Origin: Bacteroidales bacterium
GTDB lineage: Bacteria > Bacteroidota > Bacteroidia > Bacteroidales > DTU049
Length of the DNA stretch: 43,336 nucleotides
Direction: 5' to 3'
Assembly (NCBI GenBank): GCA_016937255.1
Contig: JAFGWG010000070.1
Span: forward strand, 1 to 43,336
In this document: one piece after another, positions 30,235 to 35,980 of the stretch
How positions within the stretch are numbered: the first letter of the stretch is position 1
Layout of the letters: every line of letters begins with the position of its first letter
Notes under the pieces: generated by a model
Databases searched by the model: none
Seen by the model: only the letters and a program-made list of their open reading frames with translations
Told to the model about the DNA's origin: nothing
Program-made: the position numbers and the translations under genes

Positions 30235-30608
30235 AAGACAATCAATTTTCTTCAAAATTAAGAAATATCTATGAAACCTGAATTCTTAAAGCATAGTTTT
30301 ATGAAATGAATTGGAGGGAGGTAGAAGAATTGAAGGAATATATAACAGATATAGCAATGACCCAACTTTTATGGCAAGTTTATTTTACCGTAAGTTAGTT
30401 ATCTGCATATTAACCTTTCATAGTCATATAATTCAACTCTCCGAATTGTCGTTCTGGAAATTTTATCCTGTTTTATTTTTTGTTAATTGTTTCAGTAAGA
30501 CAATAGCTGACATTTAGTTTAAAACAGTATTTATATAGAAAACTTTCAGTTGCGCAAAACTTTCCCATCAAGTTAGTAGAAAAGTTAAACCGGATAATGA
30601 TTGTAATA
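30235..30608. other. Intergenic region without a recognisable gene
   Basis: 374 AT-rich bases between two minus-strand genes. The -7 box of the DoxX-like gene (minus-strand TAATTTTG at 30253-30260) lies at the left end. The rest holds a repeated AAAACTTTC (two copies near 30540-30570). The T-rich stretch around 30460-30485 loosely resembles part of the 60-bp repeat at 33395. No coding potential or RNA is supported. Confidence 0.45.
30253..30260 (-). promoter_or_regulatory. -7 box of the DoxX-like gene
   Basis: TAATTTTG on the minus strand, an exact TAnnTTTG match about 19 bases before the ATG at 30234. It contains the TTG codon of the longer reading, which argues for the ATG start. No -33 TTG seen. 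Confidence 0.4.
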
Positions 30609-31670
30609 TTACTCACTATCACTGCTAATGTTCTTATTCATTGTTATAGCCAATTCTTTCTCAATCTCTTCTATCGTAGGCAATTCAGGCCTTAAATCAG
30701 CCGGTATAGAATTAACTATTTCATATTCTGCAACTCCAATAGGTTGAGTCGTTCCACGAAGCGCATATTCAGCAATTACTTCTGATTTACTTTTACAGAG
30801 AAGAAGTCCAATTGTAGAGTTTTCACTATCACTTTTCATTAAATCATCAACGGCTGAAAGATATAAGTTCATTTTCCCAGCATACTCTGCTCTAAACTTT
30901 ACTGATTTCAGCTCTACGACTACATAACATTTCAACTTTATATGATAAAAAAGCAAATCAATGTAGAAATCCTCTTCATCAATTTTTATTGGCACTTGCC
31001 GACCCACAAATGAAAAACCACCTCCAAGTTCAAGCAAAAAAGATGTGATATGATTTACCAGCTGCTCCTCAATGTCTTTCTCTAGCGCTTTTTCACTTAA
31101 AGTCAAAAAATCAAATTTGTATGGGTCTTTAAGTGTCTCAATTGCCAGTTCTGATTGAGGAGTTGGCAAGGTATCAGGAAAGTTTGTAGTGGCTTTGCCT
31201 GAACGGTTATAAAAATCCAAATCAACTTGATGAGCTAAAACTGCCCTTGACCAATTATTCTCAATTGTTTTATTTATATAAAACATTGCCTCTTCAATAC
31301 TTTCTACTTTCGAAATAATCAACACATTATGTCCCCATGGAATTCGTCCAACAAGTTGCTGGACTTTTTCAATTTCAAGACCTGAGCTGATATAAAACTC
31401 ATACCATTTTCTCATTGAAAATAGATTTGAGCGAGAAAACCCTTGTTGGTTTGGGAAATAACGCCGTAAATCTTTTGATGCATTTTCAACAACTGAAGCT
31501 CCCCATTTCCCAATATTGATTTTCTCAGAAATTGACTTGCCAATTTTCCAGTACAAATCTAAAAGTGCGTGATTAACAGAAATTGCAGCTTTAATCTGAG
31601 ATTTTTGAATCTCTGACTACAATTCTTCAATCCATTTTCTATATTCGTTCGAATTTTGAATGAATTCCAT
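30609..31670 (-). pseudogene. DUF1016 (YhcG-like) PD-(D/E)XK nuclease gene interrupted by an amber codon
   Basis: Read from the ATG at 31670, this is a 353-codon frame whose only internal stop is TAG at codon 18 (31617-31619, minus). Before it the peptide is MEFIQNSNEYRKWIEEL; after it come SEIQKSQIKAAISVNHALL and DLYWKIGKSISEKINIGKWG, exactly the conserved DUF1016 N-terminal region. The rest is intact: DLRRYFPNQQGFSRSNLFSM, RIPWGHNVLII and a PD-(D/E)XK-like core with D238 (FYIDLLFYH) and E253/K255 (VVVELKS). The family is predicted nuclease, often in restriction or mobile contexts. A one-base change (for example CAG to TAG) explains the break; sequencing error or re-initiation at the TTG at 31556 are alternatives. 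An exact -7 box precedes it. Confidence 0.85.
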
Positions 31671-31686
31671 TTTTTGACCTTTTCAA

Positions 31687-31694
31687 CAAAGATA
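31687..31694 (-). promoter_or_regulatory. -7 box of the DUF1016 gene
   Basis: TATCTTTG on the minus strand, exact TAnnTTTG, 16 bases before the ATG at 31670. A TTTG lies 15 bases further upstream (complement of 31710-31713), closer than the usual 19-21. It shows the full-length frame from 31670 was the expressed gene. Confidence 0.4.
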
Positions 31695-31878
31695 AACTTT
31701 TAATATTTTCAAAGCCTAACCAACTTATAACTAGTCTTTTCCCTAAAGAAGAACGCTCCACAACAAACTTACAGATTTTTGCTAAATAAATCAAGCAATT
31801 AAGATAAAAGACTAATAATCAAATCTATTCCACAAAAAACAATAAAGATTTTCAATCGGCGTTTAAAACCAAAAACAA

Positions 31879-33381
31879 ATGAAAGTAAAATTCCTGCCTC
31901 AGGTTTTTGTATTTGCCTTAATTTATACGGTATTATTTTTTCAAAAGAAATTTGGCCTAAACCTACTGTTTCTTGATGTTCTTGTGATTTCTTGGTTCAT
32001 TGTCAGCAAACAATTGAAACTGAAAAATATAAATCAGTCATTCAGTTTAGCAGGAATGCTACTTACTGCCATTTTCAGCGTTTTATACTATTCAAAACTT
32101 GCTCATATTTCGCATGTCATTTTTGTGGTCTACTTCATAGGTGCACAAAGTCTGATCAATGCAAAAAGTCCGGGGATGGCAATTGCCAACTCTATAACAA
32201 ACATGTTCTACGCCCCATTGGCGCTTATTCAAAAATTATTCTCATTTAAAATAAAAGGAAAAAGATTTGGCCGATGGCTATGGAATCTAAAATTCTATTT
32301 CCTACCCATTATTCTAATTATCTTTTTTATTGCCATTTATCGAATCAGCAATCCTGTGTTTAATAATCTTGTTCGCAATATTAACCATTGGCTTGGCGAT
32401 AATATTTTCTGGTTTTTCAGCTCCATTGATGGACGGGTTATTTCAACTTTTCTGGGAGCCATGTTAATTGGAGCCTTTGTTTTCTACAAGAAGGTAATTC
32501 AAGGAGTTCAGAACCAAAACGATTCAAGCACCGATCAACTTCTGAGACAAAAGAAAAAACATATATTCAGATTTAACGGACTCAAAACCGAAAATAAAGT
32601 AGGCATATTTCTATTTGTGGTTTTGAATTTCATCTTGCTCATTATCAACATCATAGATATCGATTGGGTTTGGTTTAATTTCCAGTGGGAAGGACAATAT
32701 CTCAAACAATTTGTACACTCTGGCACCTATTTGCTTATTCTCTCTATCATTGTCAGCATTTTTGTAGTTCTCTATTTCTTTAGAAATAATCAGAACTTCT
32801 ACTCAAAAAATAAATTCCTGAAAATCCTCTCCTATATTTGGATGGGGCAAAATGCCATTCTTGCGATTTCCGTAGCCATAAGAAACATATATTATATTTC
32901 CATATTCAACCTCGCATTTAAGCGAATTGCCGTTTTTATGTTTCTGGCTTTCATTCTTTTCGGACTCTTTAGCGTAATTGTAAAAATTCTCCGTAGAAAA
33001 AGCGTTTTTTACCTTGTAAAGGTGAACGTGTTTTCTCTTCTAACAATATTATTGCTCAGCAATTTCGTAAACTGGGACATCTTTATTGCAAAATACAATT
33101 TCAATCATTCCAATACTGCTTTTATTCATCTTGATTATTTATCAGACCTTTCAGATAAAACCCTGCCCTATCTTGATAAAAGCATGAAGGAACTTGAAAA
33201 GATTTCGCAAACTCAGGATTCAAATTTTCGATTCGACTATTATTATATGTCGCCAGAGATATATTTTAAGCATATACAAACAAGAAAAGAATTATTTAAG
33301 CAAAAATGGGAGCGCAAAACATTTCTGGAATGGAATTATGCTGAATACCAAGCATATCATAATTTAAGGGAAAATCAGTAA
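31879..33381 (+). CDS. DUF4173/DUF4153-like polytopic membrane protein
   Basis: 500 residues with about ten to twelve hydrophobic segments spread from residue 8 to about 395, then a soluble tail. Features fitting DUF4173: GLNLLFLDVLVISWFIVSKQ near the start, the RRKSVFYLVKVNVFSLLTIL region, and the tail FIHLDYLSDLSDKTLPYLDK, which matches the family's conserved Tyr-x-x-x-Leu-Ser-x-Asp pattern. Function unknown. It begins 208 bases from the DUF1016 pseudogene on the other strand. Downstream, a 60-bp repeat starts 13 bases after its stop. Family assignment is by pattern memory, so moderate. Confidence 0.75.
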   Translation: MKVKFLPQVFVFALIYTVLFFQKKFGLNLLFLDVLVISWFIVSKQLKLKNINQSFSLAGMLLTAIFSVLYYSKLAHISHVIFVVYFIGAQSLINAKSPGMAIANSITNMFYAPLALIQKLFSFKIKGKRFGRWLWNLKFYFLPIILIIFFIAIYRISNPVFNNLVRNINHWLGDNIFWFFSSIDGRVISTFLGAMLIGAFVFYKKVIQGVQNQNDSSTDQLLRQKKKHIFRFNGLKTENKVGIFLFVVLNFILLIINIIDIDWVWFNFQWEGQYLKQFVHSGTYLLILSIIVSIFVVLYFFRNNQNFYSKNKFLKILSYIWMGQNAILAISVAIRNIYYISIFNLAFKRIAVFMFLAFILFGLFSVIVKILRRKSVFYLVKVNVFSLLTILLLSNFVNWDIFIAKYNFNHSNTAFIHLDYLSDLSDKTLPYLDKSMKELEKISQTQDSNFRFDYYYMSPEIYFKHIQTRKELFKQKWERKTFLEWNYAEYQAYHNLRENQ

Positions 33382-33394
33382 TACTTTTCGGGTA

Positions 33395-33454
33395 TTTTTA
33401 TAATATTAGAGGATTTCATTCCTGTTTTATTATGTTTTTTTTGGATTCTATTCC
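33395..33454 (+). repeat. 60-bp direct repeat, upstream copy
   Basis: Matches 34607-34666 at 54 of 60 positions with no gaps; the first 22 bases are identical. It contains two GGATT...TTCC boxes (33411-33422 and 33443-33454) about 20 bases apart. Its right end supplies the TTTG -33 box of the ATPase gene. Confidence 0.85.
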
Positions 33455-33471
33455 GCGTATTACTATATTTG
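33440..33471 (+). promoter_or_regulatory. Bacteroidetes-type promoter of the DUF4143 ATPase gene
   Basis: TTTG at 33440-33443, 20-base spacer, TATATTTG at 33464-33471: both boxes exact. The expected start near 33478 lies about 10 bases before the ATG at 33488. The GGATTCTATTCC box of the direct repeat falls between the two promoter boxes, the right place for an operator. Confidence 0.62.
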
Positions 33472-33487
33472 TATAAATATTTCCGAT

Positions 33488-34606
33488 ATGATTAAGCGAG
33501 AAATTGAAACTCAGATTAAAACGCAGCTACATAAAAAGAAGACCATACTGCTATTTGGTCCAAGACAGAGTGGTAAAACAACTATACTTAAAAGTCTAAT
33601 GGAAGACGATCCAGAAAATTTTGTATTTCTGAATGCCGACGATCCAAAAGTATTGGCAACCATGAACCGGCCCAATACAGAAGAGCTTAGGCAAATAATT
33701 GGAACAAACACAGTTTTCATTATTGATGAAGCACAGAGAATACCAGAAATCGGCATTACGGCAAAACTCATTCACGACACCTTCCCAAAAGTACAGCTCA
33801 TTTTGAGTGGCTCATCTGCATTTGAGCTTGCAAACAGAACACATGAACCATTAACCGGCAGGAAAAGGGTGTTTAATCTTTGGCCTGTTTCGTTTAATGA
33901 ATATCAGAATCATTTTGGGTATTTGCATGCAGAATCTGATCTGGAAAACCGACTGGTATATGGGTTTTATCCCGAAGTACTATCTGGCACTGATGATAGC
34001 GAACTCATTATCAACGAAATAGCTGACAGTTATCTGTACAAAGATATTTTAATGTTTGCCAATCTGAAAAAACCAACAGAAATAATGAAGCTCCTAAAAG
34101 CCCTAGCATTTCAGGTGGGGAGCGAAGTTACATTCACAGAACTCGGCCGCACCTGCAATCTCGATCCAAAAACGGTTGAGCGGTATATTGACATTCTTGA
34201 AAAAGCCTATGTAGTATTCAAACTTCCATCTTTCAGAAGAAACCTCAGAACAGAAATTAAAGAAGGAAAGAAAATATATTTCCGGGATAATGGTGTTAGA
34301 AATGCAGTTATTGGCCAATTTCAAGACATCAAAAACAGAAATGATGTTGGTGCACTATGGGAAAACTTCCTTGTAAGTGAGCGTATGAAAAGAAATTCAT
34401 ACATAAAAAGCAATGCAAATGGCTATTTTTGGAGAACCATTCAGCAACAGGAAATTGACTATATAGAAGAAATAAATGGGCAACTCACAGCCTTTGAATT
34501 CAAATACAGTGAGAATAAAACCATTAAATTTTCAAAGACATTTTCAAAGAATTACACAGCAGAATTTACCGGTATTAACCGTAAGAATTTCAGAGACTTT
34601 CTATAG
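33488..34606 (+). CDS. AAA ATPase with DUF4143 domain
   Basis: 372 residues. N-terminal AAA domain: Walker A GPRQSGKT at 24-31, Walker B-like FIIDEAQRIPEIG with D80-E81, sensor region LILSGSSAFEL, and RVFNLWPVSFNEY. The C-terminal DUF4143 domain follows: LGRTCNLDPKTVERYIDIL, a winged-helix-like part, YVVFKLPSFRRNLRTEIK, and a nuclease-like end with WENFLVSERMKR, IDYIEEINGQLTAFEFKYS (restriction-endonuclease-like fold, Glu-x-Lys-type). These proteins are numerous in Bacteroidetes, often strain-specific; function is not established. The gene is flanked by a 60-bp direct repeat beginning right after its stop codon and ending 33 bases before its start. Confidence 0.92.
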   Translation: MIKREIETQIKTQLHKKKTILLFGPRQSGKTTILKSLMEDDPENFVFLNADDPKVLATMNRPNTEELRQIIGTNTVFIIDEAQRIPEIGITAKLIHDTFPKVQLILSGSSAFELANRTHEPLTGRKRVFNLWPVSFNEYQNHFGYLHAESDLENRLVYGFYPEVLSGTDDSELIINEIADSYLYKDILMFANLKKPTEIMKLLKALAFQVGSEVTFTELGRTCNLDPKTVERYIDILEKAYVVFKLPSFRRNLRTEIKEGKKIYFRDNGVRNAVIGQFQDIKNRNDVGALWENFLVSERMKRNSYIKSNANGYFWRTIQQQEIDYIEEINGQLTAFEFKYSENKTIKFSKTFSKNYTAEFTGINRKNFRDFL

Positions 34607-34666
34607 TTTTTATAATATTAGAGGATTTTATTCCTGTTATATTATGTTTATTTTGGATTTGAATCC
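34607..34666 (+). repeat. 60-bp direct repeat, downstream copy
   Basis: 54/60 match to 33395-33454. It begins at the base after the ATPase stop codon. It keeps the -33-like TTTG but is not followed by a TAnnTTTG box, so it does not form a promoter. Its right end contains GGATTTGAATCC, a near-perfect palindrome. Confidence 0.85.
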
Positions 34667-34681
34667 TGAAATTTTGACATC

Positions 34682-35980
34682 CTACTTCAAATACCGCACA
34701 AAATACACGTCAACGCAGTTGCCGCCACCTACGCCCGGGTGAGCCTGAGATGTGGAAATAAGCAGGTAATTATTCTTTCTCAAAGCAAGTCCCACTGGGA
34801 AAGAATCGGCCTTAATTTCAGTAATTTTCACCATGTCTTTTGCGCGGATAACAACAATTTTAGATTCATTGTTTACTGCCACAAAAATATACTTTCCATC
34901 GTCGCTAACTTCAATGGTTCGGGCACCAATTCCGGCAAAAGCCTCTTTCCAATTGGTATATTGCTCATTGGTTTTATTCGAATCCAAAGCATGATTTATA
35001 AAATCCGCAATTGGAGTTTTCTGAATATAACCGGTGCGGTTACTACTCAGGAATAAATATTTATCTGTAACCACAAGGTGGCGCACATTAGGACGCATTC
35101 CAAAAACAGTATTTATATACTTCCTTGTTTTCATATCGAAAACAGCAATTCCGCCACCACCCATACGACCAACAAGAAGATATTTGCTGTCTTTTGTAAA
35201 AGCAGTGCCCCGCAAACAATATCCACACTGTGAGTCACGGTTTATTGAACCCTGATTCTGAGAAGCAGAAAACTGAGCCTGATATCCTACCACAAAATGT
35301 TCTACAAATTTGAAATCTTTGTAATTATCTGATGAAATATCCACAATTCCAATGGTATTATCTCCCCAATGGGTAACGGCCAAGAATTTTCCATCAGGAG
35401 AAGCAGCAATCATTTTAGGCAGAGGACCAGTTGGCATTACACGAACAATTTCATCTGTTTCAGTATCAATAATTGCCATGGCAGATGGCTCAATAGCATT
35501 GGGATCGTAACTACGACGATAATAGGTAACCCAGAGATATTTTCCGCTATGAGTAAGACAACACTCAACTGGCTTCCCCATAAAAACATTGGGATTTGGA
35601 CGATCCTGAAGAAAATGATAATTCAGCACATTGGTTTCCTGAAAAAGACCAGCGTCTTCCTTCTTAAAATCGTGATGTATGCTTTTTTTCTTGCGGAATG
35701 TTTTCATATCAAACACCACTGTCATATACCCTTCCAGACTATTGACATAAAATTTCCCTTTCTCTTCCAAAAAAATTGCAGATTTTGGAGAAATGATATC
35801 GGGTTCGTAAATATCGTATGTGTCGTATGTTTTTGGTGTGTGACTGTGAATTCGAGCAATTAACGTAAGCTTAATTTCCCCGTTTTCTGGATTAGAAGTG
35901 CGCCCAAGTGGAGGGTGAATTACCTGTGCAAATGAAATCATTGCAAAAAGGACAAATATAAGGGTGCTGAAAATCTTCAT
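34682..35980 (-). CDS. Secreted YncE-like beta-propeller protein
   Basis: 432 residues from the ATG at 35980; a longer reading to 36127 is rejected because its extra 49 codons precede a good signal peptide (MKIFSTLIFVLFAMISFAQ). No lipobox and no T9SS sorting domain are seen, so the protein is probably periplasmic. Propeller blades repeat a pattern of Asp-Gly-Lys-x-[LI]-x-V turns: HSGKYLWVTYYR, SPDGKFLAVTHWGDNTIGIV, TKDSKYLLVGRMGGGGIAVF, SDDGKYIFVAVNNESKIVVI. Paired cysteines (ECC; CGYC) are notable. It is divergent from the B12 riboswitch operon, separated by 715 bases; whether it takes part in that pathway is not known. Confidence 0.83.
   Translation of the reverse strand: MKIFSTLIFVLFAMISFAQVIHPPLGRTSNPENGEIKLTLIARIHSHTPKTYDTYDIYEPDIISPKSAIFLEEKGKFYVNSLEGYMTVVFDMKTFRKKKSIHHDFKKEDAGLFQETNVLNYHFLQDRPNPNVFMGKPVECCLTHSGKYLWVTYYRRSYDPNAIEPSAMAIIDTETDEIVRVMPTGPLPKMIAASPDGKFLAVTHWGDNTIGIVDISSDNYKDFKFVEHFVVGYQAQFSASQNQGSINRDSQCGYCLRGTAFTKDSKYLLVGRMGGGGIAVFDMKTRKYINTVFGMRPNVRHLVVTDKYLFLSSNRTGYIQKTPIADFINHALDSNKTNEQYTNWKEAFAGIGARTIEVSDDGKYIFVAVNNESKIVVIRAKDMVKITEIKADSFPVGLALRKNNYLLISTSQAHPGVGGGNCVDVYFVRYLK

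Follow-up and report, generated by a model that had tools for sequence, protein, structure and literature searches.

We examined a window of 43,336 nucleotides, positions 1 to 43,336 of contig JAFGWG010000070.1 of a Bacteroidales bacterium, in which a gene for an ATPase of the AAA_14/DUF4143 type lies between two copies of a 60-bp direct repeat. We propose, with a probability of about 0.78, that the repeat is a two-site binding array with a 32-bp period for the gene's own product, with one copy at the promoter and the other at the stop codon. The features of the locus are as follows.

33395-33454, no strand: upstream two-box array, the first repeat copy, a period-32 array as in most close relatives
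33411-33422, no strand: upstream box 1, GGATTTCATTCC, from the sequence
33443-33454, no strand: upstream box 2, GGATTCTATTCC, overlapping TTTG at 33440-33443, which we take to be the -33 promoter element
33464-33471, plus strand: presumed -7 promoter element TATATTTG, from the sequence and the Bacteroidota consensus
33488-34606, plus strand: AAA_14/DUF4143 gene (PDC-S01) with an AAA domain, a predicted winged helix carrying K228 and a PD-(D/E)XK-like C-terminus, from profiles, predicted structure and alignment
34607-34666, no strand: downstream two-box array, the second repeat copy, abutting the stop codon
34623-34634, no strand: downstream box 1, GGATTTTATTCC, from the sequence
34655-34666, no strand: downstream box 2, GGATTTGAATCC, from the sequence
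30256-34681, no strand: accessory block of a DUF1016 gene (30609-31556, minus), a DUF4153 gene (31879-33381, plus) and the DUF4143 gene, missing where three relatives (L182, L183, L184) have the matching site

The two repeat copies align without gaps at 54 of 60 positions, and the downstream copy begins one base past the TAG of the open reading frame (ORF), exactly as a sequence-only reading of this DNA had described. The repeat is beyond chance, since it scores 46.8 against a maximum of 16.8 across 300 cross-pairings of flanks from different loci. That reading had also called for a search for further copies, and in the 3.85-Mb genome of the window BLAST (E 0.001) finds just these two, while both exact two-box matches in the genome are the window's own arrays; a dispersed element or regulon was rejected for this genome on these counts (weaker sites were not sought). 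Each copy consists of two imperfect dyad boxes of the GGATT..ATTCC type, 32 bp apart, at the four positions listed, in agreement with the two GGATT...TTCC boxes per copy noted before. TTTG lies within the upstream copy, where it overlaps box 2, and TATATTTG lies just beyond the copy. This placement agrees with the earlier description, and we presume that the two motifs are -33 and -7 promoter elements of the Bacteroidota kind. Thus, imperfect dyad sites overlap the gene's own presumed promoter, the arrangement of an autoregulated operator. The RNA fold of the repeat beats shuffled sequences (z of -3.0 and -2.6, and -3.8 on the other strand), which is expected of dyads; a structural RNA role of the repeat may also exist. 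An intrinsic terminator between convergent genes was rejected because no terminator-like site was found in 33300-34760.

The arrangement of the boxes recurs in related genes. After genes near an end or duplicated were dropped, 163 of 168 DUF4143 genes and 510 of 627 other ORFs of the same stretches were kept, the latter as controls, and the 128 DUF4143 relatives with a profile score of at least 250 bits were taken as the close family. The best upstream self-repeat (score at least 10) falls at an offset of 32 in 78 and of 33 in 9 of the 128 close relatives; under the same test the controls give 4 and 3 of 510, or 7 in total. Aligning the upstream regions of the close relatives makes dyad boxes at a fixed period visible, and a score for dyad plus period exceeds the 99% point of the controls (16.4) in 74 of the 128 close relatives and in 5 of 35 distant DUF4143 genes. 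The comparison shows that most close AAA/DUF4143 genes carry an array of this kind just upstream, with box letters that vary from gene to gene. With its boxes 32 bp apart in both copies, the window's repeat is an array of the family type. An anonymous recombination repeat was rejected as the main explanation, the repeat having the array structure of the family.

The letters of the boxes follow a single residue of the protein. Half-sites were sorted into four classes, GGA, TGA, CG and TCA, to one of which 63 of the 128 loci could be assigned. Residue 228 is K in 23/25 GGA loci, N in 19/20 TGA loci, E, Q, D, G or A in 11/11 CG loci, and I (4) or N (3) in the 7 TCA loci. The mutual information between column 228 and box class is 1.55 bits with a z of 21.4, the next-best alignment column having 8.5. 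We then find the same rule in a hold-out of 65 new loci. The strict caller classed 22 loci; the rule covers the residue in 21 of them and is correct in every one. With a word-count caller 59 of the 65 were covered, 51 called and 48 in agreement, compared to a mean of 15.3 and a maximum of 26 in 2000 shuffles; the same caller applied to the first 128 loci covered 117, called 101 and agreed in 91, with at most 48 in shuffles. Agreement per residue in the hold-out is 19/19 for K, 9/12 for N, 8/9 for E, 5/5 for Q, 2/3 for D, 1/1 for G and 0/2 for A, where no box was called. The association also recurs on independent branches of a 193-protein tree, with 7.1 of 8 pairs changing in the same direction for K/GGA (0 opposite), 6.7 of 10 for N/TGA (0.1 opposite) and 6.2 of 7 for acid-amide/CG (0 opposite). 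Median sign-test values are 0.016, 0.016 and 0.03 for these three and 1 for I/TCA.

Residue 228 occupies a suggestive place in the protein. In an AlphaFold2 model with a mean pLDDT of 91.5, helices span 216-223 and 227-239 and strands 243-248 and 261-265. They form a predicted helix-turn-helix followed by two strands, and residue 228 is the second residue of its second helix. K228 would therefore stand where the recognition helix of the predicted winged helix begins, and this residue probably predicts which box letters the protein reads. Since the box class follows residue 228 in that helix, we infer that the protein very probably binds the boxes and regulates itself. The sequence-only reading had offered binding of the repeats and self-control by the protein as one of its two explanations, and the period-32 arrays together with the residue-228 code lend it strong, if indirect, support.

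The gene product matches DUF4143 (PF13635, 137.8 bits, cut-off 28.1) and AAA_14 (PF13173, 98.8 bits, cut-off 27), and the PADLOC model PDLC04789 for PDC-S01 matches it over its full length (residues 1-372, 520.5 bits). E322, D324, E337 and K339 are invariant in 44 sequences and fall on or beside the predicted strands 311-317, 322-329 and 332-338; K339 is only nearly invariant in a second alignment (n=18). The C-terminus is PD-(D/E)XK-like, a putative nuclease. The closest structural neighbours of residues 1-276 are the archaeal ATPases PABY2304 (2qen; Z 16.3, rmsd 3.4, 252 aligned, identity 14%) and SSO1545 (2fna; Z 15.9, rmsd 3.5, 254 aligned, identity 18%), a likeness that stops short of the nuclease-like part. 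STAND-type CED-4 and plant NLRs come behind 2qen at Z 13.6 and below, and TnsC (7plh, Z 12.8 over 169 residues) and MuB (8xvb, Z 12.0 over 173) are tied with many AAA proteins. PDC-S01 is a single-gene phage defence candidate of PADLOC, and in the accessible text of PMC12988326 it is an ATPase fused to PD-(D/E)XK, a fusion that the window protein shares, and the fourth most common defence candidate across prokaryotes, with validation pending for most candidates of this sort. In a rumen survey it was the commonest single locus, according to the accessible text of PMC13356809. As far as these portions of the sources go, descriptions of PDC-S01 cover abundance, structure and evolution and mention neither operators nor a DNA code or mobile unit; likewise, we found nothing in the open-licence literature pointing to any of the three for DUF4143, COG1373 or PDC-S01.

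An array downstream of the gene is much rarer than one upstream. A dyad box of the locus's own class occurs within 130 bp upstream in 99 of 162 loci, and between -10 and 60 after the stop in 8 of the 154 classed loci with enough sequence, where the other classes average 0.83. A list of two-sided loci assembled by hand has nine members (the window, L013, L034, L046, L053, L063, L115, L231 and L234), with K, N, G, A, V or I at residue 228, and the two-sided state takes nine changes on the 193-protein tree by a method that infers no direction. The downstream copy starts at most 7 bp from the stop codon in 7 of the 9; in L053 it overlaps the gene end and in L231 it begins 74 bp after. Outside the nine, a tenth candidate (L151) has a 76-bp repeat, one copy of which spans the upstream array while the other begins 32 bp past the stop. 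Comparison across loci shows that a duplicate of the gene's own array downstream is a minority condition, scattered over nine tips of the tree. Between the copies, core box letters differ at 3 of 74 positions and other letters at 86 of 604 (p 0.010, eight loci). Since downstream arrays recur in unrelated members and their core letters differ less between copies, they may be kept by selection.

The upstream array appears to travel with the gene. Among the 60 best DNA matches between DUF4143 loci, all overlapping the gene, 9 were overlapping windows of one locus and the other 51 were used, with identities of 76-86%. Rows with the split gene L100 aside, the starts of these matches range from 126 bp upstream to 27 bp downstream of the start codon (in most, -40 to -90), and their ends are never more than 51 bp from the stop codon (in most, within 25). 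Because the matching DNA ends at the array and near the stop codon, the array, promoter and ORF seem to move jointly between genomes as a unit ending near the stop codon. The cassette proposed by the sequence-only reading is half supported, by a gene moving with its upstream array and by the insertion of the region between genes adjacent in three relatives, described below. Gain or loss by recombination between the repeats stays a supposition, and, measured by that reading's own condition for refutation, most relatives have the upstream array without a downstream one.

Exact two-box patterns were sought in 295 genomes of the order, with strict patterns that miss most real arrays. The GGA pattern gave 10 sites, 9 of them beside a DUF4143 gene: two in the window and seven just upstream of other DUF4143 genes. 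The reversed GGA pattern, used as a control, gave 0 sites in the same genomes. Four of the five sites of the TGA pattern are upstream of DUF4143 genes. The two remaining sites are arrays without an intact gene. L307 (G016:C41:21638-21681) is a two-box GGA array near which neither a DUF4143 gene nor a remnant of one was detected, the contig ending after 295 bp; its neighbours, by our own reading of the sequences, are presumably ATP synthase subunit-like genes, and it is possibly the footprint of a lost unit. L317 (G268:C95:6196-6241) is an array of the TGA class in direct contact with what is left of a DUF4143 C-terminus, a match to residues 329-372 (E 3e-5 when 3 kb were searched); it looks as though a deletion had removed the gene body and left the array. 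Both fit gene loss, and neither proves recombination between repeats.

Direct repeats flanking the gene are also frequent in the wider family, which the sequence-only reading had suggested checking. When 500 bp upstream were compared with 500 bp downstream and a direct repeat was counted at a score of at least 18, 43 of 163 DUF4143 genes had one against 10 of 510 controls (p 7e-20), and loci added later gave 13/64 against 1/34. The ten repeat-bearing controls include what we take to be a DUF1016 gene, a REP-type transposase and a KilA-N-like gene. Because DUF1016 genes have flanking repeats in 3 of 31 cases compared to the 43 of 163 for DUF4143 (p 0.06), such repeats may be a general trait of accessory genes. 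The repeat sequences vary by locus; genome searches covered the window's repeat, with its two copies, and that of L157, which recurs. In several loci the repeat is a duplicated 3′ end of a host gene, namely of dihydroorotate dehydrogenase (L043), MnmE (L070), photolyase (L018), a DUF4846 protein (L115), an SSF symporter (L142) and, as an outer layer, an amino-acid kinase (L013). L013 (G029:C5) has an inner array-gene-array nested in this outer duplication of 81 bp. Other repeats look dispersed, simple or multi-copy (e.g. L014, L042, L081, L110, L141 and L157), so the 43 are only an upper bound for target duplications.

The DUF4143 gene of the window sits in a larger insertion. In L182, L183 and L184 a beta-propeller gene is followed directly by a MauE/DoxX gene at a distance of 204, 311 and 108 bp, respectively, and these MauE/DoxX genes are 60-65% identical to that of the window, where 4.4 kb with the DUF1016, DUF4153 and DUF4143 genes lie between the two; in L185, a fourth relative that has the propeller gene, another gene follows it. 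No array of this kind was found at the propeller-MauE site of the three relatives, where the intergenic DNA is too diverged to decide. The left neighbour had been called DUF4173-like and instead matches DUF4153 (PF13687). The DUF1016/YhcG gene, described earlier as decayed, is probably truncated at its N-terminus, its N-terminal profile match starting at position 24 of 137, and it has no flanking direct repeat above chance. As this gene matches PDC-S02 and the DUF4143 gene PDC-S01, both inserted between the propeller and MauE/DoxX genes, the locus looks like an insertion spot for accessory genes. No transposase, such as a classical DDE transposon would encode, was found between the repeats, whose sole gene matches AAA_14 and DUF4143 only in Pfam. 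As for the terminal inverted repeats of such an element, one weak inverted pair brackets the gene (33201-33225 and 34657-34681, 80% over 25 nt); its left arm falls within the DUF4153 gene, and several of 13 other pairs are at least as strong.

In the binding-array explanation, the product would read the boxes through residue 228 of its predicted winged helix. Two protein dimers, three helical turns apart, would occupy the array at the promoter, mask the -33 element and keep the gene repressed. By the comparison of loci, the array, promoter and ORF form a horizontally mobile unit ending near the stop codon. The downstream array could be a second operator arm acting by DNA looping, an insulator against read-through, or an element end used in movement; our preference is for looping that lets repression act cooperatively across the gene, and mobility is a real rival. 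Autoregulated genes with dyad operators, a general kind, likewise have dyad boxes over their promoter and a product with a helix-turn-helix, here a predicted one. However, the regulator of the window would itself be an ATPase that has a nuclease-like domain, its boxes keep a fixed spacing of 32, and specificity is rewritten per gene. Integron gene cassettes share a single gene with a repeat of ~60 bp directly after it and also before it, whereas the window's repeat is an operator-like array private to one gene.

Three other origins for the two-sided arrangement were weighed. The downstream copy could be the remnant of a tandem duplication of array and gene whose second gene was deleted. DUF4143 pairs with an array before the second gene do exist (L268 and L269), and the array and residues 329-372 retained at L317 illustrate a gene deletion that leaves the array. 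However, nine separate changes would be needed, with breaks alike at 18 to 45 bp before the start codon, the window has no second start codon or gene trace after its downstream copy, and in the two tandem pairs inspected the second array lies some tens of bases past the stop; we consider this origin unlikely. We give somewhat less credence still to arrays that are the ends of a protein-driven mobile element, where the ATPase-nuclease would bind, cut and move or circularise the unit and the repeat would mark insertion. In its favour, the unit ends near the stop codon in loci of unrelated context, 14 of 56 loci with a repeat have a downstream copy starting between -10 and +10 of the stop, L013 has its nested arrangement, the PD-(D/E)XK-type residues are invariant in the 44 sequences, and TnsC and MuB are among the structural neighbours, though tied with the other AAA proteins. 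Most mobile relatives do without a downstream own-class box, though (8/154), near-identical copies within one genome were not found, and target duplications elsewhere in the family lie mostly outside the array. Least probable of all is an insertion that duplicated long target DNA and left arrays on both sides merely because the target already had one, an origin for which the duplicated host-gene 3′ ends speak, as does L115 in repeating a host 3′ end and an array together, but against which stand the array part of the L115 repeat, identical where the host part is not, and the propeller-MauE sites of the relatives with no such array, within the limits of their divergence.

Several points weigh against the binding-array explanation. 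The upstream array of the window is itself imperfect, with a score of 11.6 that falls short of the control 99% point of 16.4; 54 of the 128 close relatives fall short of that point too. The first covariation set was limited to loci with one of the four classes (63/128). The word-count caller was devised after the hold-out upstream sequences had been viewed, with the residue rule fixed earlier, and under it 10 of 101 first-set and 3 of 51 hold-out loci break the rule. The I/TCA class is weak (4/8 in the hold-out, and informative in 1 of 4 pairs on the tree), residue N also occurs with TCA boxes (3/7), and the tree was built with the residue-228 column kept in. The core-letter test is post hoc and small, and took its cores from regular expressions matched by either copy, with the unmatched L034 left out. 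Looping is a guess.

A one-residue DNA code suggests self-regulation and helps define the mobile unit of PDC-S01, a very common defence candidate for which the accessible parts of PMC12988326 and PMC13356809 give no mechanism. If the binding-array explanation is true, any model of how it acts in defence has to accommodate a private DNA target next to the gene itself. A further and doubtful extension is that each DUF4143/PDC-S01 gene is a complete mobile element by itself, its ATPase-nuclease recognising a private array of period 32, with two-sided arrays as the working ends and residue 228 and boxes rewritten together so that many copies per genome coexist without cross-talk. If this were so, their abundance in defence surveys would partly reflect selfish spread.

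Two further flanking repeats were observed. At L033 (G000:C137:10400-15500), in the genome of the window, a DUF1016/YhcG gene lies between the copies of an 86-bp duplication, which comes from a Peptidase_M90/SEC-C gene's 3′ end, and another DUF4143 gene adjoins. L157 (G217:C10:46929-50928) has a DUF4143 gene between pieces of a dispersed unit with many copies in its genus. Its repeat looks recent and was considered for an empty-site test in the same genus, then set aside as the flanks recur side by side elsewhere in the genus. Since the flanking pieces belong to a recurring attC-like unit, L157 has no bearing on the window. L178 is another copy of this unit and has paired GCCCAAC...GTTGGGC ends that resemble integron attC sites by eye.
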